Part shown: one piece after another, positions 4,502-46,372 of the stretch | Position numbering within the stretch: position 1 is the first letter of the stretch | Layout of the letters: each line of letters begins with the position of its first letter | Source: Margaritispora aquatica | Lineage: Eukaryota > Ascomycota > Leotiomycetes > Helotiales > Discinellaceae | Direction of reading: 5' to 3' | Assembly (NCBI GenBank): GCA_007644065.1 | Contig: VJWN01000005.1 | Span: 620,001 to 684,000 of the forward strand | DNA length: 64,000 nt | Position numbers and translations under genes: made by a program | Notes under the pieces: generated by a model | Databases searched by the model: none | What the model saw: the letters and a program-made list of their open reading frames with translations, nothing else | Told to the model about the DNA's origin: nothing

Positions 4502-6239
4502 CGTCGAGTGATGTAATGAAGTTGATGGTGTTCATGTGAGGCCAATGGGTTCAAGTTGATTCTGTTCGTTTCCAATGGTTCCTAATGGTAATACAAATCG
4601 AGGAGAAAAGTCGTGAATAAGAGAAATAGCAACGCTGAAGCTGATTCGATGTTCAAGAGAAAAGCAAGATGGAAAGACGAATATGTGAGGTAACACAAAC
4701 ACACTATTCCAAAAATACTGCAGGAACCAAAAGCCGTCAAAGGTCGAGATCGAGAATGAAGCAGGAAAAAAAAAAGCTACCTTGGATTGAAGCTAGAATC
4801 GAAGCTAGCATGTCACCTCACCTCATCTCTTCTCCAAACTCCAGAAAACCAGCCGAATGTCTCAGTCCCATCTTCAATCCCCATGTGGTGCTAGCATGGC
4901 CTTGTTTTCTTTCTCTCCACCCAGCGTAGATCGGGTTCGTTCTTGTGCTTCTGCACTGGCTTGCACAAATACAGTCCAGGTAGCTTGCAGTTGAACTTCC
5001 ATTCCTCTCCATTCCTGGCTAGCTGACACGGGCCACCCCTCCTAGCCACTCGATCAGTAACCCCGCAAAGTGTAAAGCAAGGTCTACACGAGGTCAAGGA
5101 TACCTATGAATACGTGGTACGGGAATGTTGCTTGTGGTACGTTCATCATGAACTTTGGATGATCGATGGACCACGTATCACAGCAACACACACAAGTGAG
5201 TAGGGTCGCGTATGTGGTTGAATTCTGCGGTGCGGTACAAGAGGACGCGACGAGGGGGCGAGAAAAGGATCGAGAAGTGAAAGAGATCAGTTTCTTGATT
5301 TCGCGGGTCAAAGAGGTTGGTTGGACGGAAGAGGCTGGAATGACGTTGTCTGTGCACGGATCTTTTCTTTTGTTCTGGCTCGACGATGCGGGAAATCAGG
5401 TGATTGGGGTGAGCTGGCTGGACGGGGAGTCTTTCGAAGGTCAAGGTCAAGGTCAAGGTCAAGGTCTAGGTCTAGGTCCATTTAGGTCGAGCTTTCCCTT
5501 GAAGGAAGCAAGGACAAGGATCTTTGAACAAATTCAGGAATAGCATCAGTTTTCGGGAGGTAAATTAAGCATAATAGGGGACACAGTATGACACAGCAGT
5601 ACGCATAGAATACACGAAATACACACATAATCTTGATGAGACAAGTTGTCTCAATTGATTTCATGCCAGTGAAGCAAATGCCCAGCTACATCAAGGTATC
5701 ATGCTGAAAGCGCTCTAATATCATACCACCCTGGCAACAAGGTAACCTCCCATACAGGTATTTTTTGATAATCTTACAAATGTTTGAAAAAGCACCCCAG
5801 ATGTCATTGATTCGTTTATCATGAACAATGGTAAATGCCATAGCCATACTGTTCTGAGCAATGGGACGTATGAGATGTTAACCGCCTTTCTTTTGAAAGC
5901 CTCACCACTATAAAGAGTGTATGCAGTTGCCAATCATATCTCAGTTTGCCATCCCCTTGCTCTGCCAGCAAAATACAACTCCTTCCCTCAGAGTACAAAA
6001 ACGCCTTTCCATGCCATGTACTTCGTACCTGTCATCTTGTCCCATGTGCCATTGATAACGTTCATGAGGGAGCCGCCTACAGAAAACGCCAAGAGAAAGG
6101 TTTACCTAAAGAGTGAGTTTTGTGTGTCGTAATGTTGATCGCCATGAAGACAAGGAAGTGATGGATATGAGGTGTATAATGATGTGACGAATGTGGTGGA
6201 TGTGTGTTGGATGTGATGTATGTGACGCGAGGATCAAGC
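4502..6239. other. Intergenic spacer with a hexamer tandem repeat
   Basis: About 1.7 kb without a supportable gene. It holds the promoter of the CAP gene on its left and the 3' flank of the trehalose gene on its right. The only clear structure is the GGTCAA/GGTCTA repeat near 5439-5480. Confidence 0.45.
5439..5480 (+). repeat. Hexamer tandem repeat (GGTCAA)n then (GGTCTA)n
   Basis: Four copies of GGTCAA run directly into two copies of GGTCTA and a partial seventh unit. It is a short non-coding microsatellite with one base changed in the last units. No function is implied. Confidence 0.85.
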
Positions 6240-12551: not shown

Positions 12552-15137
12552 TTACCAAGCCCATTCATTAGTATCACAATGCCATCCGTCAACACAATTA
12601 TGAGCACCGTCCAACAGCAACTTGCTCATTTCCGCCATAGCTGGTAGATGGACACCGTCCATCATAGTATCCTTAACCAGGTCGATGTACTTAGCGAGCA
12701 GTTTGGCCAGCTTAACCACGTCAAGCAAAGCACGGTGGGAACGGTGGACCAACCCATCTTCGAACAACAGGGCATACATATGTGCTTGCCTATGCGATGG
12801 TAAACCAGGGAAAACTCGTCGTAACGCGTGGTAGAGCGTGTATGAGTTCTCGCTAGGAGGGAACACCAGGCCAGATGCTTTCCCAGCTTGATGCAACAAC
12901 CTCCAATCGCAAAAACCCGCACTGTATTCTATGATAATACAATCCTTGGTCAGACCAAGTTTCGAGAGCGCTTGCATAGCTAAGTCGAGTGAAATGGCTG
13001 GCTTTTCGTTCATGAGGACGCTTGCATTGAAGAATTTGTTGAACGAGAGTCGGGATGCGAAATGAACGGTGGGCTGCATGAGTCGAGTCCGAAGCTCTTC
13101 GACAGATATATCAGCAGGCATTACCCGACTCTGATACTTAGTGCCAACGAGATTCATTGCTCCAATTTCTAACGCATGATATGTACCTGACTCAATACAG
13201 AATTCCCAATCTATGAGCCAGATGTTGTTAGGCGGTGTTGACAGCATGCGATTGAGAAGTCTCAAACCATGTACGGCATCTGGGAGAATCTTGCCCGAGT
13301 TCAACAACAAGGATTGCATTTCTTTGTAAGATGTGATTCCCTGACCCAAGCCTAGTCGCAGAATTCGGCTTTTTGACAATTCTTTGAACCGCATTCGAAG
13401 GGTGTTTTCGTGGGATATGTTGAGATGATGCGAGCAAAGAGTAAATCCACAGACCCTTTTGCTCATACATGCCTGGGTACCTTGACACACGTCCAGCCCC
13501 TTTTGAAGATTAGATAGTTGCAAATTTGTTTTGCTTTGAACCCATTTGCGTTGCCCATGGTGCCAGGAACAGAAATAACAGCGTTCAAAATAGAGACAAC
13601 GTGTAAAAACGTTAGCTTGTAAGTTTGAATAGCACTTAGGCCACAAGTGTGCCGTCTCGGCAGACAACATAACCTGATGAGGACATGGCCATACGTGACC
13701 ATCAACATCTTCGAAGCCTGGACAGCGTCCAATCTCAACTGCTTCGACAATTGGAGCAGCGAGCTTTAGACGAACATGCATAGATGTCCAGTGGTTGATG
13801 AGGGCATTGTTTCTCATTTTGAGTATACCTCGCACTGTATCAGAGTAACCTTCAGCTTGTAGTTCAGTGATTGAAGGTACAGTGTCATCCTCATCATGTT
13901 CTTCGGCACCTTCGCTTGCAACCACGGCGTCCTGGTCAGGCATCACGAATTTGAACGGTGTGGAGAACTCAAGCTGTTTCTTCCGTAATGCTTGCCGATC
14001 GTGCTGATACTCCTGAATCTGTTAGTACTTGAATGTAAAATTCAACATAAGAAATTGATTGATTGAAACATACCTCCCGCTGAGTGTCAGTCAGCTCGAG
14101 AATCCAGGCATGACTAGTATTCTCGTGCCATCGAAGGTCGCTAGGTTTGGTGTATTCATGACCAAATTGGGTGCACAAAGGCTCTGTACAGTTCCGCTCG
14201 AGGCGCTTATTGTCTTGATCGATATCTCGAAGACTCGCCACATCAATATTGTAGGGAGCCGCGATATGTTCCGGGCTTGATGCATGTCCGGTTTTTTTAT
14301 CATTCCAATGCTTGCTACCAAAGTATTTTCCAAAGCCAGGGCACGAGGAGATTGTGCATGTGCTCAATGCTGGGTCCGCATGCCATGTAACTCGATGGCC
14401 AGAAAAGTTATGCTTGGTTTTAAAGTCTTGACCAGAGCTTGGGCAATTTGTTTTCACACAAACAAATGGACGCTGTCCTTTAGGCTGATACTTCGTATTG
14501 TACTCGCCGCTATGCCAGTAGTAATCGTGTTCAAGGTACTCTTCAGGAGTGAAAGCTTGCCCGAAGTGCAGACAATATGGAGTATAACATTTCAGACTAG
14601 ATAGATCAGCAACGATGCTCGTTATAGATGAAAGAGAGAGGAAAAGAGGCAGACATACTCCGTGAAAATGCAAGACTTCTTGACTTTCCTACAATTCCTG
14701 CAGTTCGGGAAAGAGACACAGATCAAACCCCTTTCTTTGCAGCGATCGCAAGGAGGTGGAGGACGACGAACACCTTGATGTCGGCCAGGCCTCTTAAGTT
14801 TGTCCTGGTCATCAATAGCTTCGAGATCAATGTCCTCATCCTCGACAGTAGACAAGGTACGCTTTTTGGCCTCCCGGATCAAGGGTGATAGAGCGGTGAC
14901 AGGAGAGACTCTGAATGAAGTAGTAGAAGGACTTGTATTTTCAAGAGAGAGTAGTGATGAGGAACTACTAGATGATGAAGTGATGGACGGCGTCCAAGCT
15001 TTTGAGGGACTTGGGCAAAGAGTTGCTGATGTACGGGCGATGGCCTCCTGTACAAGACGGAGTACCTCTTGATTGTGTTGTCTGCCTACTTGGTGATTCT
15101 TCTTGACTTTTGGCTCCTGGCTCTCCATGAGTGGCAT
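12552..15137 (-). CDS. Zn2Cys6 + C2H2-like zinc fingers fused to a DEDDh 3'-5' exonuclease domain
   Basis: Three exons (14659-15137, 14074-14596, 12552-14018) join in frame at both junctions to 822 residues. Residues 130-156 hold CX2CX6CX5CX2CX6C, the exact spacing of a fungal binuclear zinc cluster. About residues 163-320 hold four C-x4-C ... H-x4/5-H units that look like a C2H2-type array. The C-terminal half has an RNase-H-fold exonuclease signature: WLIDWEF (Asp and Glu of Exo I) near 602, AGFCDW (Exo II Asp), and SHRALLDV (Exo III His and Asp) near 760, so all five DEDDh residues seem present. A Ser-rich linker lies before the zinc cluster. The start used is the ATG at 15137; an ATG at 15128 is the alternative. 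The substrate is unknown. Five copies or near-copies of a GGACNNNGTCC palindrome lie within its exons. Confidence 0.75.
12602..14995. repeat. Dispersed palindrome GGAC-RSY-GTCC, block 1 (five sites)
   Basis: Exact GGACNNNGTCC occurs at 12650-12660, 13720-13730, 14468-14478 and 14985-14995. A near-copy (one mismatch in the left arm region) is at 12602-12612. All lie in exons of the Zn-finger/exonuclease gene but in different reading frames: MDGVH, GRCP, GQRP and WTPS. The central triplets (ACC, AGC, GCT, GGC) also follow the self-complementary pattern RSY or nearly so. The eight fixed bases are expected about once per 64 kb by chance. Confidence 0.75.
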
Positions 15138-15947
15138 TGACAGTGAGGAACGAGAGTGGACACGAGGGATGGAAGGGAGTTGATGTGAAGATTGGGGGTG
15201 AGAAAGTGGGAATTTTTCCCTGTATACATTTTGCCTGAGAAGGAAAGAGCGTCGCTGGGTTGAGTCTAACAATGGAAAGTGCTCCCTCTGGTGCTGTTCT
15301 GTACTGGGGACGAATGAAGAAGGAAGGACTCATACTGGACCACAGAAATTAGCTGGACAGTGTCCGAAAATATGCGGTGGGGATTCTTTTGAGAATGTCT
15401 ATGGGAGACTTTAATCTCAGCGCCTTAGAGAAAAGATATGTGCTTTACTTACAGAAGCTTGTGTGCGATTTGGTCCCGCTGACCTGTGTTATTGAGGGCT
15501 GAAGTCAGGCCTTCGTAGGATTAAAATCCTAGTATGAATGAGAGGAAATAGTTTGACTACATTATAATGACCTTGATCAAGCCATTTTCTTACAGTCAGA
15601 CGGCTCATTGGCACTCTATGAGTAATGTATAGAAGGCTTAAATTCAAAATTCATCAAGAGCTTTGATAGCTAGGTAAAATAAGGTTGTTGATCCCGTGAC
15701 TATATCGAGAGCATTACAGAATGAACTGAGTCTTACCATCAGATTTCTGTCCTTGGACCTTGAAAAGAGTTTATAGCACTTGCCAGTTTCTCAGTTAGCA
15801 GGGAGCTGGTAATTTTGCCTAGAGAAATCCAGCGTGACCGCGAGAGACAATATTTTGGGCATGGCTATGAAGAGATAATGGTTTACTCAAATTATACCGT
15901 CATACAATTCTCCCTGAGCGCTTTGAAGGATGTTTATCTTAGCAAAA
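15138..15947. other. Intergenic spacer between exonuclease gene and enolase
   Basis: About 0.8 kb. It contains the 5' flank of the Zn-finger/exonuclease gene and the 3' flank of enolase, both on the minus strand. An ORF extending the exonuclease frame upstream to 15272 begins with TTG, so it probably belongs to the 5' leader. Nothing else is seen. Confidence 0.4.
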
Positions 15948-19626
<3,679 letters not shown>

Positions 19627-35229: not shown

Positions 35230-36114
35230 ATGGACGGCATCCAAGTAAGCAGATGTTATCAACAAGGAATAAATAAAAGAAAGGTCGCTAATATAAAGAC
35301 GTAGGAACCTCGATCCAAGCACGCAAGGATGAACTTCACAATCCCCCGTAGCATCCCAGGCGAAGTCAAAAACCAAATTTACCGTTGCGCTGCCCTGCCA
35401 AATGACACGGAACCCGAGCAACGTACGTTCAAGACAGTTACTTTGAAGGGAGAAATATCGCCTTTAGACACCATCCAGTCTTTCTACATGGACACCGTCG
35501 ATTCGTATGGAAAGAGCTTGTTATTCGCAAAGGAAATCCTCCAGGTGGCCGCGTTTACTCAGGAGGTTCTCACGCTTGTGATGCCACACATTATGTTCAA
35601 GTTTCCCTCGCTGTTTGCTTTGCAAATTTTCGTCGAGAAATTTGCCGCTCATCTCAGTATATGTACAGTCGTGCCAGAACTTCAAATCGAAATAGACTTT
35701 ACAACGGGCATGAGCGAGAGCGAAAAGACGTTACTAGGTAGATGGGTTGAATGCAAGCTGCCTCACGGAAGAGAGATTGGCATGCATGACCAAGTTGAAG
35801 GATGGATGTTAGCTACTCAGCCCCTACCCGAAGGTATAACTATCCACCTCATCTTCTCACAAATCTGGAGAGACTTTCGAGAGCTCCGCGGCCTATCGAA
35901 GAAGTATGGCCTTCCAACACGGAACGTCACTTTCCAATTCCCGACGCCGTCCAATCAGTACCCCGAGCACGATTTCTGTGTTGCTCAAACTATGGCGGCA
36001 GTGAAAGATATTGAGGTCCCCGAAATGGCTGAGATAAGTAGCGATAGGAGAGCTCAGCTTGTCAAATTTGGCTGCAGAGGTTTCAACGGGAATGGACAGC
36101 GTCGAACTGGCTGA
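35230..36114 (+). CDS. Unrecognised protein with an F-box-like N-terminus
   Basis: Exon 1 (35230-35244) codes only MDGIQ; exon 2 (35305-36114) follows after a GTAAGC..GTAG intron, giving 274 residues. The segment IPGEVKNQIYRCAALP near residue 21 resembles the start of the F-box/2EXR-like domains of many filamentous-fungal proteins (consensus LPxEIRNxIYRxAL), but I cannot name a family with certainty. There is no signal peptide or membrane segment. The protein ends in a basic stretch, NGNGQRRTG. Three copies of the GGACNNNGTC motif lie in the gene, one directly over the start codon. It is transcribed away from the RecQ gene and converges with the next gene. Confidence 0.6.
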
Positions 36115-36293
36115 AACCATCAACTGGGACGGAAATTGGAGATTGGCAAGATTTTACGTTGGCGAACACGAACTACATGATGTATGGCGAGTGGAATTCA
36201 CTGGGCTGAAGACGTAGCGAGCATGGCATTCTGAACAAATAGAAAGCAAGTCTATATGAAAACCACCATTCATTGTAAACTAACTTAAGATAA

Positions 36294-37856
36294 TCAAGAA
36301 GTGCTCGCTAGAGCTTCTTCTATCAAAGCAATAAGCTTCTGAATGTGCTCTGCACCAGTACTGTTTGCAGTGGCCAACTGCTCGGCGTGAATGGCGAAGA
36401 CTTGTTCATTCAAAGCCTTCAACGCGGTCCTATCCACACAATTTGCAATCTTGTTCATCAGATCTTCAATAGATGCATGGTTAGTGATTCCTCCGTGCTG
36501 CTCCCGAAGTTCCTGTGCCTGTGCACTCCAGAACCTGACTATCTCCTCCAAAGCGAGATGTACTGCCCGAAGTAAAAGGGTTAGGTCGCCTTCTCCTTTC
36601 TCGATCTTGGACGTCGTCCGTGATGATGTTATGGCTTGAATTTCATTGAAAATTTCAATATCGTGGATGATATCAGCCACCGCTTTCTCCACATCCCCAT
36701 CAGACATTGCTTCATGTACACGGTCGTGGCCTATTCGGAGAAAGTGGACAAAGCTCTGGTACGGCAATTTCCCCCCAAGCCTCTTACGTCTGAGTGCAGA
36801 ATGTAGGGTGATAACAATGTCAGGACTCATTGCGGGGCTCAGTGCTTGCAGGTTGGGATAGGTTTCCTAATCGCATCTTAGGGTTAATGGGAATATGAGA
36901 TGCATGGTGGCACGTACCTGGACCGACTCGATTGCTCTCTTAGCATCATCCAAGTCAAGATCATCCTCAAAATCATAGAACGCTAGGACGCCTTCATCGG
37001 TTGGCTTTTTGAGGAGGTCGGGGAGGATATTTTCCAATGTTTTTTTCAAGGCGTGGATGCTAGCAGGGTCGCTGGACAGCATTGAAACGGAATATTGCAT
37101 CAAGATCTGGTTTGCAGCATTGACCGAGGGTGTAATAGATAAAACATTGGACGGTGTCGAATTCCTAGAAGCAGATATTGTAACAACGGCTCGTTGTGGT
37201 GGCTTCTTGTCCCGAGCTGCATGTGTCTTGCATGCCATGCCAAGGTCACCTCTCCTAGTCTTGACATTTTTATTCGCATCGACTTTCTCCCAAATCTCTG
37301 CAAAGTAGAAAATCTTGTCTGATGAAATGACGCGCATATTGCAGAGTCCGTGTGTTTGGTGACACGCGACATAATACTTGATGCTGGCAGAGGCGATGTT
37401 GTCGGTTACTGGTACTATAGCTCGAAGAACATTTGTTTCCTTTGGAAGAACACCTCTGGCTTCACGGTCGACCACCCGTTGTTTATCTCTGGATTTGCCA
37501 CTAGCTTTGGTAGAGTACTTTGCGGGATCTAAGGCCAATACTAAACCAACAACAAGAAATTCCATGGTCTCCGTTCGAGATTCGATCTCCTCCTTTGTTG
37601 GGAGGATGGGGATCAGTAGATGAGGTGCTGGTGCGTCTGCCTCTGGGTTATATGGGTTCGTTGTCTTACTGCCCTTAGCGTTGGTTCGGACGTAGATTTT
37701 CTGCAAACGTCGTCGCCCTGGGACTCCAACGATGATTTTTTCTAGAAGCTCATTCGTGGCAATGTCCTGCTCCGCATGTAAAACGAGGTCAGGTTCCACA
37801 GCATCATCATTTGGACGCTGTCCTGAGCTCTCAGCTTGAGTCCTGGAAGAAGACAT
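36294..37856 (-). CDS. Unrecognised 503-residue protein
   Basis: Two exons (36918-37856, 36294-36866) separated by a GTACGT..ATTAG intron join in frame to 503 residues. The start used is the first ATG (MSSSRTQAESSGQ); a longer upstream frame begins with TTG. I cannot place it in a family. The first half has a basic, strand-rich region (KIIVGVPGRRRLQKIYVRTNAKG). The second half, from about residue 320, is mostly helical and charged, suggesting a coiled or helical-bundle domain. There is no signal peptide or membrane segment, so it is probably intracellular. It shares a 346-bp divergent promoter with the gene at 38203. Three palindrome sites lie in its exons (36609, 37149, 37813). Confidence 0.65.
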
Positions 37857-38202
37857 CCTTATAGAGTGTACTTGATATCGTGATTTTAGCGCGCGAGACG
37901 ATTGTGATTGACCTTTTGTTTCGATAGGTATTCGCAAAAGGAACTGAAATGGTTGGAGTGGTTGTAAGAATTTCGCTTTTGCAAAGTTACAGCTTCGAAA
38001 TATTCGAAAGTTGAGGTTTGGCGAATGAACGCGTGAATCAATACTGGGTTGACTTGGTTTGCAGACCGAGTCGTAACTGAATTTGCACCTGCGTCAAAAG
38101 ACTGTGATCTGCACGCCATTCATCGAACGTGATCTCGAAACGTGGGAACAACCTCACGATCAGTTGCCCGAAATCAGTTTAGGAAGTGTTTATTACATCA
38201 AG
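37857..38202. promoter_or_regulatory. Divergent promoter region
   Basis: 346 bp between two divergent start codons (37856 minus, 38203 plus). An open frame runs into the right-hand gene from 38083 but starts with TTG. Bidirectional expression is inferred from layout only. Confidence 0.4.
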
Positions 38203-39031
38203 ATGGACGGAGTCAAAGATTCAACCTGGTTAAACTTTTCCTCGAGTCTTGACGCTATCGCGCGCAATCTGGCGAGACCAAAGCAGCGCGGCGTGCGAGG
38301 CAATGGATCTCAAACCTCAGATGGTCTATATGTAACTCTGAGAGGTGATTTGGCTTCAATTGTGACCAGTCCACTCTCACAGTTGGAGAGGTTAGACCCA
38401 ATCCGCAACTTGAGTGCAATTCAAATCGAGGCGATTCGAGAGTTGTACACCTTGATTGACGTGGGAGAAAGTATGGGGAATGGCTTAGAAATGGCTTTGA
38501 TGAGGGTTGTGAAGCTGCTCAATCCGAGTTCTCAATTCAATGGAGGCGATGAGGAGGATGGAGACGATAAGAAAGAAGGAGACGATGAGGAAGATAGCGA
38601 CGACGGGGACCCTACCAGTACGTTACATGTTCAGTATATTCACGTTTCTGTGGAGACTAATATTATCTGTTGTAGATGAGCCTACGCATGGACAGCGTCG
38701 AAGTGCAAGGTTATCAAAGGTGGTAAAGCGTTCCTATAATGAAGAGGATGAGGATCCTGACTTTTGGCTGGAAGAGGATGTCGCCGACGATGATGACGAG
38801 ACAGATATAAAGGAAAAAGAGGAGACTGATGATTCGGAGATTGATGGCGGACATGCACAGGAGCAGGACTTTGATGAGGAATTCAAGGCCAGTCTTTACG
38901 ACGATGCGGGTGATGCAGAAGAGGAAGACCATACAAACATAAAGGAAGATGAGGAGACGTGCGATGATGGGCAAGACGAAGACGACGAAAATGATTACTA
39001 CTACCCTGATAATGAGGTGGAGGATTGGTAG
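38203..39031 (+). CDS. Unrecognised acidic protein (256 residues)
   Basis: Two exons (38203-38617, 38676-39031) join in frame to 256 residues. The start is the first ATG in the frame and overlaps a palindrome copy (MDGVKD). The N-terminal 115 residues look globular and helical. The rest is dominated by acidic runs (GGDEEDGDDKKEGDDEEDSDD, then repeated DDDDE, EEEDH and DEDDEND), broken by a basic patch THGQRRSARLSKVVKRS. Such acidic tails are common in nuclear histone-binding or chromatin proteins, but no family is recognised. Palindrome copies lie over the start codon, in exon 2 (38690) and 37 bp after the stop (39068). Confidence 0.6.
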
Positions 39032-39185
39032 GCATCGAGATTGCGAATCGAATGATCACACGAGTTTGGACAGCGTCAAATGTCCGGAGCATACTTCTAT
39101 TACGTGTAATAATAATGATGATAATAGCATAGATTGAATGCTAGCTATCAACTAAAATTTCATCAGAACCCAGTTGTTATTCCCA

Positions 39186-41432
39186 TTAGAGATCATGCCA
39201 GACCTGAGGCAGATTGCCATCTTCCCTAGTAACATTTTTGATGATCTTGGAGTTATGTCTGTCCTTTTTGTTGCGCAAACCCGCCTTGTATTGCTCGACG
39301 TTACAGTTTTCCGCACTGAGCCTAATAACAAAGACTTCTCTTAGCTGGCCAGGGCGATGGGCACGCTTAATGGCCTGTCTCTCCCACTCCATTTTCCACC
39401 AAGGGTTGAGCAGGATAACGATGTTGGCTGCGGGAATGTTCAGCCCAACTCCTCCTGCAGCTCTTGAGATCAGAAGCACTTTAATCCCCCGTGTCTCCTC
39501 AAAGTCTCGTAATAACAAATTGCGCTTCTCAGGAGCTTGACGTCCGTCGTACCGTGTGCATTCTATTGGGTCATACATGTTTGCCAAGGCAATTTGGACG
39601 ATGTCTAAGAAGTAGACGCTCTCGTCGAAAATGAGCAGAGAGCATTCGGGATCTGTATCTCTGAGCTCGTTGAAAACGTCAATTAGGGCCGTGATGCGAG
39701 ATGACCTCCAAGTGTCATCTTGCAGCAGTCGTTCTTTCCAGACGATCCATTCTTCGATATCTTTGGCTTCGTACAGCGCGTCATCAGAGGCTTGTGCAAT
39801 GCCTAGCTCGGTCGAGTCTCGTGTAAGATGCATGATACGAACCAGTTCTGGATGACTCGCGTGCTGACTGGCTTTAGTGAGCTGACCCCAGCCCGCCATT
39901 CTCAACTCGGCTGCTTGTTGGACGCCGTCCTTCTTACTCATATGTTTGATGTCCAAATACTTTTGAAAATGGTGATTCGAGTCCCCTTCCTCCGTTGAGG
40001 TGAGACTGAAGGTAACGGTCCTCTCATGAAGGGCTGGAAGGTCAAGGATTTCTTCTGGTCGACGAACGATGAAGCTGTTGAGTAGCTGAACAAATCTGCT
40101 GAATTTGTTGCCCGTTGGGGGACGAAGTTTGCCTGCGATGGTGTGATGGGCAAAGAGTAATCGCATGATACGCCTGCTTCTGATGGTATGGTCCTGAAGG
40201 AACTGGAGATACGCGTAGATGTCCATCCAAGTGTTGTCCACGGGGCTACCAGTAAGCATGACACATGTGTCGGCTAAGCTTCTGAGTTTCTGTATAGCAG
40301 CAAATGTGATCGACGATGAATTCTTGACTGCATTAACCTCGTCAAGAACCAGGTATGGGCATTTCACCCCTTCTTGGAGGCTGAAAATATCCGAGAAGAT
40401 GGTGAGACTTGGACGCTCAAGATGGCCAACGCGACCGGTTTCCTGTGCCTTTCCAACACCACTGAGGTACTTCTGAAGCTTTCGGTACTGGGACATGACA
40501 AAAGGGTACGACATGAGGATCACATCGTACTTGAAGAGTGTCATTGGAGACGTGCTGGAGTCCCGGAGCACCAAGACTTGGACGGCGTCCTAGTTGAGGA
40601 ATGATTAGTACAGGGAGATGAGATCTTTAGAAGAGGACATACCGGAAGGAAGAACTTTTCGAATTCCGCTTTCCACTGGTCGAGGCAGCTTGGAGGAACG
40701 ACAGCAATAGAGAATCGCTTTGATTTAGAGATTGCCTTGACCATCGCCATCATGGCAGGGAGTGTCTTCCCCAACCCAGGAGGATCGCCAATCATTACCG
40801 CCTTCAATGAGCTATCACGAGTGTATTCAATTTTAGCAAGGGCTGTGTTTTGGTAATCTTTTGGCTGGATTGCAAGATGTGGGCAGGGTATAGTAGCAGC
40901 CTGCGTGGCGTGGAGATTGGTCTGGAGGCGTGTGAGTGCACGAAAGGAAGCAAATGGACAGCGTCCTCGAGGAAGATTAACTTACGATATGATGTTTGAT
41001 GTGGTTCAACCATGTAACCTCTGCGGCGCATTCTGTATCGCTTTCTTCCATAGACATTTCCTCATCTTCGTCGGTGGCATCAGCATCATCGACGTATTCA
41101 GCGTCTCCGTCCGTGGGATCGCCTCGAGGGTCAGCCTGAACAAACAATGACTGTTCTAGAGACTCTGCTTCGCCCATTGCCACATCTCCGTCATCGTCAG
41201 CGTCACCAGCGACCTGAAAATCAACCAGGCCGTCACCCGGGACAAAAGCATCAAGGAGGACGCGGTTGCTGGACACGTGGACTTCGCGATCACGCAGGAT
41301 GGTTTCCGCGAGTCGAGTAATCTCAATCGTGATAGTTGCAATTGATTTTATGGTAGTAGAAGGAGTTTGCGTAGCCTTTGCTTGGGTAGAGGCAGTGGAG
41401 GAGCTAGTACTGCGTAGGTTGGACGGCGTCAT
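39186..41432 (-). CDS. SNF2-family DNA-dependent ATPase / helicase-like protein
   Basis: Three exons (40986-41432, 40643-40921, 39186-40589) join in frame to 709 residues. The motor is compact. Walker A GDPPGLGKT is near residue 195. Motif II reads VLDEVNAVKN (a DEVN box instead of DEAH/DEGH) near 325. MLTGSPVDNTWMDIYAYLQFL follows, and the C-terminal lobe has SRAAGGVGLNIPAANIVILLNPWW and RAHRPGQ near 657, the classical SNF2 motif VI. An acidic region (about 100-140) precedes the motor. SNF2 proteins use ATP to translocate on DNA and remodel chromatin or displace proteins. No accessory domain (RING, HIRAN, bromo) is seen, so the branch is uncertain; it is nearest the Rad5/Rad16-like style. 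Four palindrome copies lie in it, one abutting the exon 3 acceptor and one inside intron 1. Confidence 0.82.
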
Positions 41433-41721
41433 GTTGATTATTGAAAGAATTCTGTATGTGTGTGAGGTGTGAGCTAGAAATCGTATTCATGTGAGAGAAA
41501 ACTCGAAACTCCACAAGAGGCAGGCGCGGTTTGATGCGTCTGCTTCAAAGTAAAGTGAATTGTTGGGGAAGGGGGTTTGATATATCAACTCGCTCGAGGA
41601 ACAAAATCTATCGCGAGATCGCAAGACCACGAAGCATTAATTCCTGCTCAACCTCAATTTTTCAACTTCGATTTTTTTTCAAGCAAAAGGTCCAAAACAT
41701 ACGCAGCTTTCGATCGCAAAG

Positions 41722-42342
41722 ATGGCAGGCAAGAAGAGAGCCACAGTCAACAAACCTGGCAAGAAGAATAGCAAGGACGGTGTCCAAACAGATAAAGTCA
41801 CCTTGCCAAAGAGCACACGTGAATGGGAGGAACTATACGAGCAGACTCGTGCTCGTATTGGACCTCCGGGGACACGCTTCAAGAATGTCATCGATAAGCT
41901 CGAGTTGAAAGCAATCAAGGACCAAGAGGTAAGACGTCATTCGTGATTTGCAAAAATGGAGGCTTACATGTTCTCCTAGGGCAGAGAACTTGGTGGTGAT
42001 ACCGATGATGAGAGCGATGAGGAAGAAGAGAATGATGATAACTTCGAGGATGCTATCGAGGAGGATGAGGATGAGGAGGAGGAAAAGGATGAGGAGGAGG
42101 AGGATAAGGAGAATGCTCCATTGACTTCAGACGAGATTCTCAACATTCAGCGTGATGCTGCTAATCCTAGCACCCGACTTGGTCCTATGCCTGGATCTAT
42201 TCTCGCAATGGTGTACAATGAGGATAAGGATGACACCTCTGACTCTGACTTTGAGGATTTGGACAGCGTCGAATCTATGGATAGTGAGGATACCCTTGAG
42301 GAATTGGATGACAACGATGAGGAGATGCTTGACATCAACTAA
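41722..42342 (+). CDS. Unrecognised small acidic protein (189 residues)
   Basis: Two exons (41722-41928, 41980-42342) join in frame to 189 residues. The N-terminus is basic (MAGKKRATVNKPGKKNSK). A short conserved-looking helix follows (STREWEELYEQTRARIGPPGTRFKNVIDKLELKAIKDQE). The second half is strongly acidic, with long Asp/Glu runs and GPMPGSILAMVYNEDKDD between them. The basic-head, acidic-tail pattern suggests a nuclear or nucleolar protein, but I do not recognise it. It is divergent from the SNF2-like gene, 289 bp apart. Palindrome sites lie at 41775 (KDGVQ) and 42261 (LDSVES). Confidence 0.6.
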
Positions 42343-42547: not shown

Positions 42548-42715
<168 letters not shown>

Positions 42716-45217: not shown

Positions 45218-46372
45218 TCACAGCTTACTCACCCCCGTCTTCCTCTCAGCAATATTCCTCTCAGCTGGCACCGCAAAGCCCACATGGTTACTAATAGCCA
45301 CCAAGTCCAAGCCCTCATCGAAAATCAGCACCTCCAAATCCACCCTCCCATTCTTGATCATCTTCGTGTGCGTCCTCACGAACAGCCACTCCACGCCTTG
45401 CTCCGGCAGCGCCTTCTTCATGTCCAAGTTCAGCAGCAATGTCGGGTACCAGTACTTGGTGACCGTCTTGAACGCGGCCTGGTTCGCCGCGTGCTCTGGC
45501 GATGTCACGTCGTAGGTTTTCGGATCGTAGGGGTTGAATGGGTACGACGACGCTTCGACAGGCATGGGCCACATGTCGCTCGCGAACCCGAGCGAGGCGT
45601 TACTCCAGCGCTCGCCTGGCGAGGACAGCCGGATCCATTCGTCTGAGCAACTTCGCGAGCTTTGGCCTTGCCGCGGGAAGTAGAATTCGATTCTCTGCGT
45701 CGCTTTGCGGAACGAGGCGTACGGCATCTCGGGCTGCTGGACCCAGTTCGGATCTCCGCCTGAAGGGAGCAGGGACGGCGTGCATGGCGCTGGCGGCGGA
45801 GACAGCGTCCAGGACGTCGGGAACGAGGGCCCGGTCTCTAGGGGGATGTTGGACAGCGTGAGCGTGCCGGTCACTTCGGTGCGCGAGTCTTGCGTCAGTG
45901 TTATGTGCAGCACGGTGGCTTGGCGCCCGAGTTTGAGGTCGACGATCGTGAAGAGCGCGGGGCCTGTTTGTGTCCGGCGCAGGAAATCGAGGTGCAGCGC
46001 TAGGACGTGCGGTTGGTTTTGTGAGGAGAGCGTTGTGGATGCGTGGAGGGCGGCGGCGGCGAGGAAGGTCCCTGTTACGTAGCCGCCTTGGGGGACTGGG
46101 AGGGTTGTTAGTTGAGTATTTTACGGGAGAGGAACGAGCAGGTTTGTTTGGAAGAGGTGAAGGAGAGGTTGGGAAGGTAGGTAGTTGTAGAAGGTAGTGA
46201 AGAATTTGGAGAGAGAGTATTTTGGAGTGATGGTGGGGTAGTGAGTGTTATTCTGAGGAAGGGTTATAGTACCTGAGCCTATGCACCATTCGTCTGGGAA
46301 ATCGGCCTCGTATGTATGCGATGAGGTCGGCGTCAGGGCAGATGCTTCTGCGAAGGTTTTGGGAATCGACAT
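45218..46372 (-). CDS. Thioesterase-superfamily (hotdog, TesB-like) protein
   Basis: Two exons (46273-46372, 45218-46095) join in frame to 325 residues. The splice restores CIGSGVPQGGYVTGTFLAAA, the typical first hotdog strand and helix of acyl-CoA thioesterase-like proteins. A second hotdog-like half follows, with SSPGERWSNASLGFASDMWPMP and a C-terminal VEWLFVRTHTKMIKNGRVDLEVLIFDEGLDLVAISNH. This matches the double-hotdog architecture of fungal thioesterase-like superfamily proteins. The likely role is hydrolysis or binding of acyl-CoA; the substrate is unknown. No targeting signal is obvious. GC content is clearly higher than in neighbouring genes. Degenerate palindrome copies lie at 45800 and 45851. 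Confidence 0.8.

Follow-up and report, generated by a model that had tools for sequence, protein, structure and literature searches.

Clusters of a 15-bp palindrome in the Margaritispora aquatica genome as a possible tag of homing-type mobile elements

In the 42.36-Mb assembly of the helotialean fungus Margaritispora aquatica, a 64-kb stretch (G000:C45:620001-684000, hereafter the window) carries two clusters of a symmetric 15-bp sequence, here called P1, with the consensus WTGGACRSYGTCCAW (W-T-G-G-A-C-R-S-Y-G-T-C-C-A-W) and little information beyond those 15 bases. The positions of its copies, in the window and in the rest of the genome, give good support to the reading that P1 belongs to homing-type elements, putative mobile inserts with tyrosine-recombinase-like or GIY-YIG-like nuclease genes. 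With moderate confidence, we regard P1 as the predicted site of a homodimeric protein that would tag such elements, where the window would hold a single element of ~10-11 kb at the enolase gene, split by an inversion, and the tag would likely work against silencing.

Eleven exact GGACNNNGTCC cores are found in the window, against about one expected: five at 12650-15355 and six at 36609-41775, with none outside these two groups, which lie in what we call block A (12.6-15.4 kb) and block B (35.2-42.3 kb). When one mismatch at most is allowed, the cores amount to 36, compared with a mean of 19.1 and a largest value of 31 in 100 shuffles, and 18 of the 36 are within 35232-42271. The pattern TGGACN3GTC, which requires one flank base, occurs 22 times when both strands are considered, against a mean of 2.0 and a maximum of 6 in 40 Markov sequences; 21 of these sites are inside blocks A and B, and none of the 22 is in the 20 kb of other genes that separate the two blocks. 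These two tallies do not depend on the P1 position weight matrix (PWM), which was trained on 16 block B and 5 block A sites, so that PWM counts inside the blocks are circular. The first-pass annotation of this DNA had claimed such an excess, and both the shuffles and the Markov controls place the palindrome above chance in the window; its tally of ten exact cores is here corrected to 11, and to its block at 35.2-42.3 kb a second one is added, at 12.6-15.4 kb and adjoining enolase, which was not part of that claim. A lone P1-like 11-mer is also present at window position 45799, outside both blocks.

The even dispersal of the copies through 35.2-42.3 kb, another feature of the first description, is borne out as far more regular than uniform placement. 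Under the rule of at most one mismatch, the 18 sites of block B are on average 413 bp apart with a coefficient of variation (CV) of 0.38, as even as only 4 of 400000 uniform placements, and the 16 sites under the TGGACN3GTC rule (mean 451 bp, CV 0.29) are as even as 1 of 400000. By reading, P1 sites occupy codon frames 0, 1 and 2, but also non-coding positions: an intron of the SNF2-family gene of block B (40954), an intron-exon border (40578), start codons (35230, 41419) and flanks (15353, 39066). Within the SNF2 gene alone, copies are found in exons and in an intron, across an intron-exon border and at the start codon. The three frames, the intron and the flanks together rule out a protein motif or codon bias as the source of the sites, as had been argued at first sight.

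At the genome scale, P1 shows no overall excess, with 49 GGACRSYGTCC sites versus 50 for the reversed control. Ten of the 49 are in the window, which represents 0.15% of the genome, and the further groups of at least two exact sites within 3 kb are just three (contigs C6, C11 and C23), all of them on tyrosine-recombinase-like/C2H2 genes. The string TGGACRSYGTC gives 145 strand matches, of which the first 100 listed yield at least three further pairs within 2 kb; among the matches listed, the pairs at C2:288k and C45:301k are on GIY-YIG-like genes and a third one, on C33, is not. The C33 pair was examined as a candidate element and rejected, as no element was seen. A genome-wide count at expectation had been named in the first-pass annotation as a point that would tell against the palindrome; the count does equal expectation, while the clustering by locus is strong.

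The recombinase-like proteins of C6 and C11 are paralogs of one family, in which the R, HxxR, H and Y residues were read by eye, and the Pfam Phage_integrase match at C6 has an E-value of only 0.17. The C23 protein matches DUF3435 above the Pfam cut-off. C2H2-type fingers are present in all three proteins, weak by Pfam in those of C11 and C23. In blocks A and B of the window, no tyrosine recombinase gene was found.

Two of these loci share a layout where the insert adjoins an intact host gene at its 3′ side, and an old 3′ end of that gene remains beyond the insert. At C11, the host is an acyl-CoA dehydrogenase gene, read as glutaryl-CoA dehydrogenase, whose intact copy ends beside the insert; the second copy of its last residues is recovered by tblastn (36 bits, E 3e-9 in 1.4 kb, compared with at most 15.8 bits for 30 shuffled peptides), and the repeated end is weak at the DNA level (70% over 50 bases, E 0.07). 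At C23, an insert of ~4.5 kb follows an ARC1-like gene (Pfam Arc1p_N_like and tRNA_bind), with a decayed ARC1-like end beyond it (76% over 84 bases, E 7e-10). At C6 (L007 8655-8760, L008 ~1960), the recombinase-like insert interrupts an MFS transporter gene, and a short repeated segment lies beyond it.

The window has the same ingredients in a different order. The intact enolase gene adjoins block A, and a remnant of an enolase 3′ end (42556-42715) adjoins block B on the opposite strand, with 78% over 82 and 73% over 71 bases in common with the intact 3′ end, which carries an intron that is missing from the remnant. The locus fits the layout of an insert between gene and fragment only if an inversion is assumed: the segment 12.4-35.2 kb has probably been inverted, so that enolase, block A, block B and the remnant would originally be collinear, with P1 all along. 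Another enolase-like match, with 54% identity to the remnant, is present at G000:C18:294607-294759.

A second class of P1-bearing loci is formed by five GIY-YIG-like paralogs, each of them interrupting a conserved host gene, as indicated by Pfam on the flanking frames. Among the hosts, a member of the ATP synthase alpha/beta family was read as ATP synthase beta and a helicase as Ded1-like; the other three are genes for pyruvate carboxylase, clathrin and a HEAT-repeat protein of the EF3/GCN1 kind. GT-AG borders could be read at three of the five loci, those in ATP synthase beta, pyruvate carboxylase and the DEAD-box helicase, and no signature of Group I or Group II introns was detected by Rfam at gathering scores in eight loci, the five GIY-YIG-like ones included. 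These proteins are assigned as nucleases from their invariant residues and from a structural resemblance to UvrC that is only middling; the assignment was not confirmed by Pfam, and Foldseek with a GIY-YIG-like model returned nothing at E <= 0.001. All end in C2H2 fingers. Homologs amount to 62, and we take the named ones to span several classes of Pezizomycotina; no relatives turned up in IMG/VR.

P1 (PWM >= 14) is present at all five GIY-YIG-like loci, with nine sites in 19.3 kb. Three loci that were found by protein, without the use of P1, hold five sites in 11.5 kb versus none in a background of 211 kb of other sequence, which includes seven loci picked for holding a site, with those sites masked. 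A second palindrome, P2 (AAAAGTACTTTT), occurs 20 times genome-wide versus 8 for its control, and with at most one mismatch it is found at four of the five GIY-YIG-like loci and once in the background. Groups of at least two P2 sites within 3 kb are restricted to four places, C11, C23:34k, C23:2149k and C46, the first three being recombinase-like or GIY-YIG-like loci and the last one neither; the C46 pair was discarded, as it has no long frames. P2 then marks a set of recombinase-like and nuclease loci that overlaps the P1 set (L009, L010, L021, L042). When 15 regions are scanned blindly for repeated palindromes, P1, P2, their sub-motifs and an AT repeat at C6 are recovered; the scan requires two to four copies, and single tags are missed. 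Altogether, 13 recombinase-like or nuclease loci were scanned, with P1 (PWM >= 14) in 10, C1 and C45:292k among them, and P2 (at most one mismatch) in 8, six of the 13 having been first met through P1 itself (five of the ten P1-holders and the locus C23:2149k).

These observations suggest a history where an element would enter the 3′ part of enolase, provide the gene with a replacement 3′ end and push the old one to the far side, and an inversion of ~12.4-35.2 kb would then separate blocks A and B. A dimeric protein would bind P1 along sites spaced by about half a kilobase, as a self-tag over the whole body of the insert, and this binding would most likely protect the insert from silencing, allowing its genes to be expressed and the insert to be copied. 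A body-wide self-tag is preferred, since sites every half kilobase would not be needed for a role confined to promoters or ends. From the first suggestions on what P1 could be, a dimeric DNA-binding factor survives, as the symmetry of the site makes a dimer its natural reading, while a tiny spreading element is not favoured, because the sites seem to belong to larger elements that were inserted. A 15-bp insertion sequence is likewise not favoured, although insertion site by site may still hold, and a small insertion is possible at one SNF2 site. P1 occurs in elements with unrelated enzymes, tyrosine recombinases and GIY-YIG-like nucleases, and a bolder proposal, which we put forward tentatively and hold as clearly less probable than the tagging role itself, is that unrelated homing-type elements share a palindromic passport made of P1 and P2, set at even intervals in the larger elements across coding and non-coding DNA and read by one dimeric protein that would take all tagged DNA for a single element, a code for self under selection for spacing and density and not for position.

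Several observations, however, weigh against reading P1 as the tag of homing-type elements. The inversion in the window is deduced from the layout only, and Pfam recognised no transposase or integrase in blocks A and B. At C6, the transporter gene is split with no intact copy beside the insert, and a restored host gene was not seen. Even spacing does not extend with the same strength to the other clusters: in a test without the weak sites (35940 in the window and a single site each at C11 and C23), spacing at C6 is no more even than random (P 0.19), and evenness is only weak at C23 (P 0.012) and C11 (P 0.034). The recombinase loci at C47:778k (decayed), C13 and C29 are without P1 (PWM >= 14) or P2 (at most one mismatch), and those at C1 and C2:823k hold one of each; with several recombinase loci having one tag or none, dense tagging is not required. 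At the C47 locus (L031 981-995), a decayed P1 can be seen by eye at zinc-finger codons (IDGVH), resembling the P1 site of the C6 paralog. The anti-silencing role, in turn, would be suggested by a single analogy, that with VANC. Finally, in an alignment of the GIY-YIG-like query with 39 of its 62 matches, 40 proteins in all, the signature of one site is at the same columns in the query only (1/40) and within a few residues in 8/40, and that of the other site is kept in 4/40. P1 sites seem to turn over, as if density outweighed position.

For the SNF2 gene of the window, the cross-species comparison, which was made in all cases at the protein level, is more favourable. Among 17 aligned proteins (that of the window and 16 of 36 matches), the P1 site at 39918 falls in a variable loop where D[AGST]V[QR] is found in 11, the window's included, and the proteins that lack it are among the more distant ones, except for P0003. 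The central RSY encodes exactly A, G, S and T; since these are interchangeable small residues, the conservation is suggestive only. The residues of the site align in line in the nearer homologs, with short gaps in four more distant ones, and there may have been a small insertion at that SNF2 site. The conservation across species that had been proposed as a check is thus suggestive for SNF2 and weak for the GIY-YIG-like family.

Other explanations for P1 have to be weighed against the tagging of homing-type elements. The best placed, though in our opinion an unlikely one, is a site for a host transcription factor that co-regulates a gene set including these: symmetric 15-bp sites are typical of dimeric regulators, and some copies do lie at start codons (35230, 41419) and in a 5′ flank (15353), but those of the window run regularly through coding sequence, intron and 3′ flanks instead of gathering in promoters, and such a factor does not fit with the lack of a genome-wide excess. 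Only slightly behind it, we consider it doubtful that P1 sites serve recombination or repair proteins as loading points or waypoints while an element is homing or being excised. Tags do span the insert in the window, C6, C11 and C23 with gaps of ~1.1 kb at most (weak sites dropped), and the C11 P2 sites are just inside both host-gene ends; the related loci with one tag or none argue against such a use, and we know of no enzyme that employs such sites. Poorer still are the prospects of a host mark, bound by a sequence-specific silencing or surveillance factor directed against the elements, which would explain why the sites fall on element-like loci and run lengthwise in the larger ones, but harmful sites should be lost, whereas one seems to be kept in the SNF2 homologs of other species, and the sites in the window are evenly spaced. 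A by-product of codon usage, of a repeated peptide or of chance, the view to which the genome-wide core count by itself would lead, is highly improbable in the face of the three frames, the intron, the flanks, the shuffles, the Markov controls and the masked background.

Tagging by P1 has partial counterparts in bacteria. Prophages e14 and P21 are elements with tyrosine recombinases that enter the 3′ part of icd and restore its frame, unlike which the fungal loci show a nuclear setting, zinc-finger proteins and dispersed tags. Neisseria DNA uptake sequences and the enterobacterial matS are short sites dispersed through coding DNA, matS being a palindrome with a variable centre; these bacterial sites extend over all or much of the chromosome, whereas P1 clusters are confined to inserts.

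Among eukaryotic systems, WHO elements at FBA1 of Torulaspora and Lachancea are flanked on one side by an intact housekeeping gene whose 3′ end has been replaced and on the other by the old, displaced fragment (PMC7282813); the C11 and C23 inserts are likewise bordered by a host gene that is intact and by a displaced piece of its 3′ end. Like HO, WHO proteins are fusions of intein and zinc-finger parts (PMC7282813), while those of C11 and C23 are tyrosine-recombinase-like, and dispersed palindromes are not mentioned in the sections of the WHO account consulted. In mirusvirus shintrons, GIY-YIG-type nuclease genes are carried in GT-AG introns of conserved genes (PMC12768974); at three of the loci described here, a GIY-YIG-like gene is similarly enclosed by the GT-AG borders of a predicted intron in a conserved gene, without Group I or II signature, but the loci differ in their fungal nuclear hosts, the C2H2 fingers at the protein ends and the P1/P2 tags. 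In the VANDAL/VANC system of Arabidopsis, a short motif enriched in the elements is read by a sequence-specific protein (PMC5735166). P1, too, is a short motif that is enriched in a group of putatively mobile elements, its reader here being only predicted; the motifs read by VANC21 are densely set, asymmetric and uniformly oriented, frequently form tandem repeats and lie mainly in non-coding parts (PMC5735166), whereas P1 is palindromic, about half a kilobase apart in the window and in the coding sequence of unrelated elements. Among the open-licence papers searched, nothing on point joining palindromes with recombinases, Cryptons or Starships was found in the matches listed, and the GGACNNNGTCC string turns up in one paper, on maize. 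The elements resemble known kinds, such as WHO and shintrons, and the shared tag appears to be new.

If this reading is true, homing-type elements with enzymes other than HO-like ones would be present in conserved nuclear genes of a filamentous fungus, P1 would provide a sequence tag for finding them, and it would become testable how mobile DNA remains active within a busy host gene and is distinguished from host DNA. There is also a caution for annotators, as an intron-borne nuclease is apparently joined to the host protein in public entries. ATP synthase beta sequence stands beside the nuclease in P0064, P0065, P0066, P0068 and P0077; the join in P0065 follows ALTG, as in the M. aquatica genome, and three others resume with the residues that follow ALTG here. 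In P0047, by reading, the nuclease is joined to a V-ATPase A-like sequence. These five fusions and P0047 are probably misannotated introns.

Table 1. Coordinates of the P1 sites, genes and frames discussed in the text. Positions are those of the window, except in the last three rows, which refer to other loci.
Feature	Position	Strand	Remarks
P1 ATGGACACCGTCCAT	12648..12662		coding, frame 0, MDGVH
P1	13718..13732		coding, frame 2
P1	14466..14480		coding, frame 2, GQRP
P1	14983..14997		coding, frame 1, WTPS
P1	15353..15367		5′ flank of block A frames
Block A frames, probably a single gene with introns	12552..15272	-	
Intact enolase	15948..17519	-	Pfam Enolase_C; 3′ end faces block A
Block B, 17 P1 sites with PWM >= 14	35230..42273		
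Block B P1 starts	35230, 35488, 35940, 36092, 36607, 37147, 37811, 38203, 38688		
Block B P1 starts, continued	39066, 39594, 39918, 40578, 40954, 41419, 41773, 42259		
261-aa frame	35329..36114	+	without Pfam match
178-aa frame	36294..36830	-	family-less open reading frame
356-aa frame	36867..37937	-	family-less open reading frame
Two overlapping acidic frames, 198 and 163 aa	38083..39031	+	
SNF2-family helicase gene with introns	39186..41432	-	exon layout by reading
Displaced enolase 3′ end ([11 protein letters not shown]...FRTAVNL*)	42556..42715	+	
GIY-YIG-like gene in ATP synthase beta intron	L013 7601-9521 (C2)		
GIY-YIG-like gene in pyruvate carboxylase intron	L022 ~4652-6212 (C45)		
GIY-YIG-like gene in DEAD-box-type helicase intron	L042 (C23)		

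Regarding the remaining contents of the window, most of its frames are orphans; the frames scanned gave no Pfam match to an HO/intein-like endonuclease, and Rfam gave no match in the window. In block A, the 464-aa frame shows motifs like those of DEDDh exonucleases (IDWEF, HRALLD), by eye only; no homolog was obtained at E <= 1e-5 among 7996 scored candidates, its fold model is uninformative (predicted local distance difference test, pLDDT, 35), and a sequence search of the PDB gave no notable match. The 216-aa frame has a Zn2Cys6 cysteine pattern (Pfam Zn_clus E 0.057, below the cut-off) and the 234-aa frame C2H2-like fingers. Block A, with such zinc-binding motifs, is at most a speculative candidate for encoding the predicted P1 binder. 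In block B, Pfam SNF2-rel_dom and Helicase_C cover 39186-40574 of the SNF2 gene, whose best named homolog is from Cudoniella acicularis, a helotialean fungus, and five distant SNF2 loci are found in IMG/VR.

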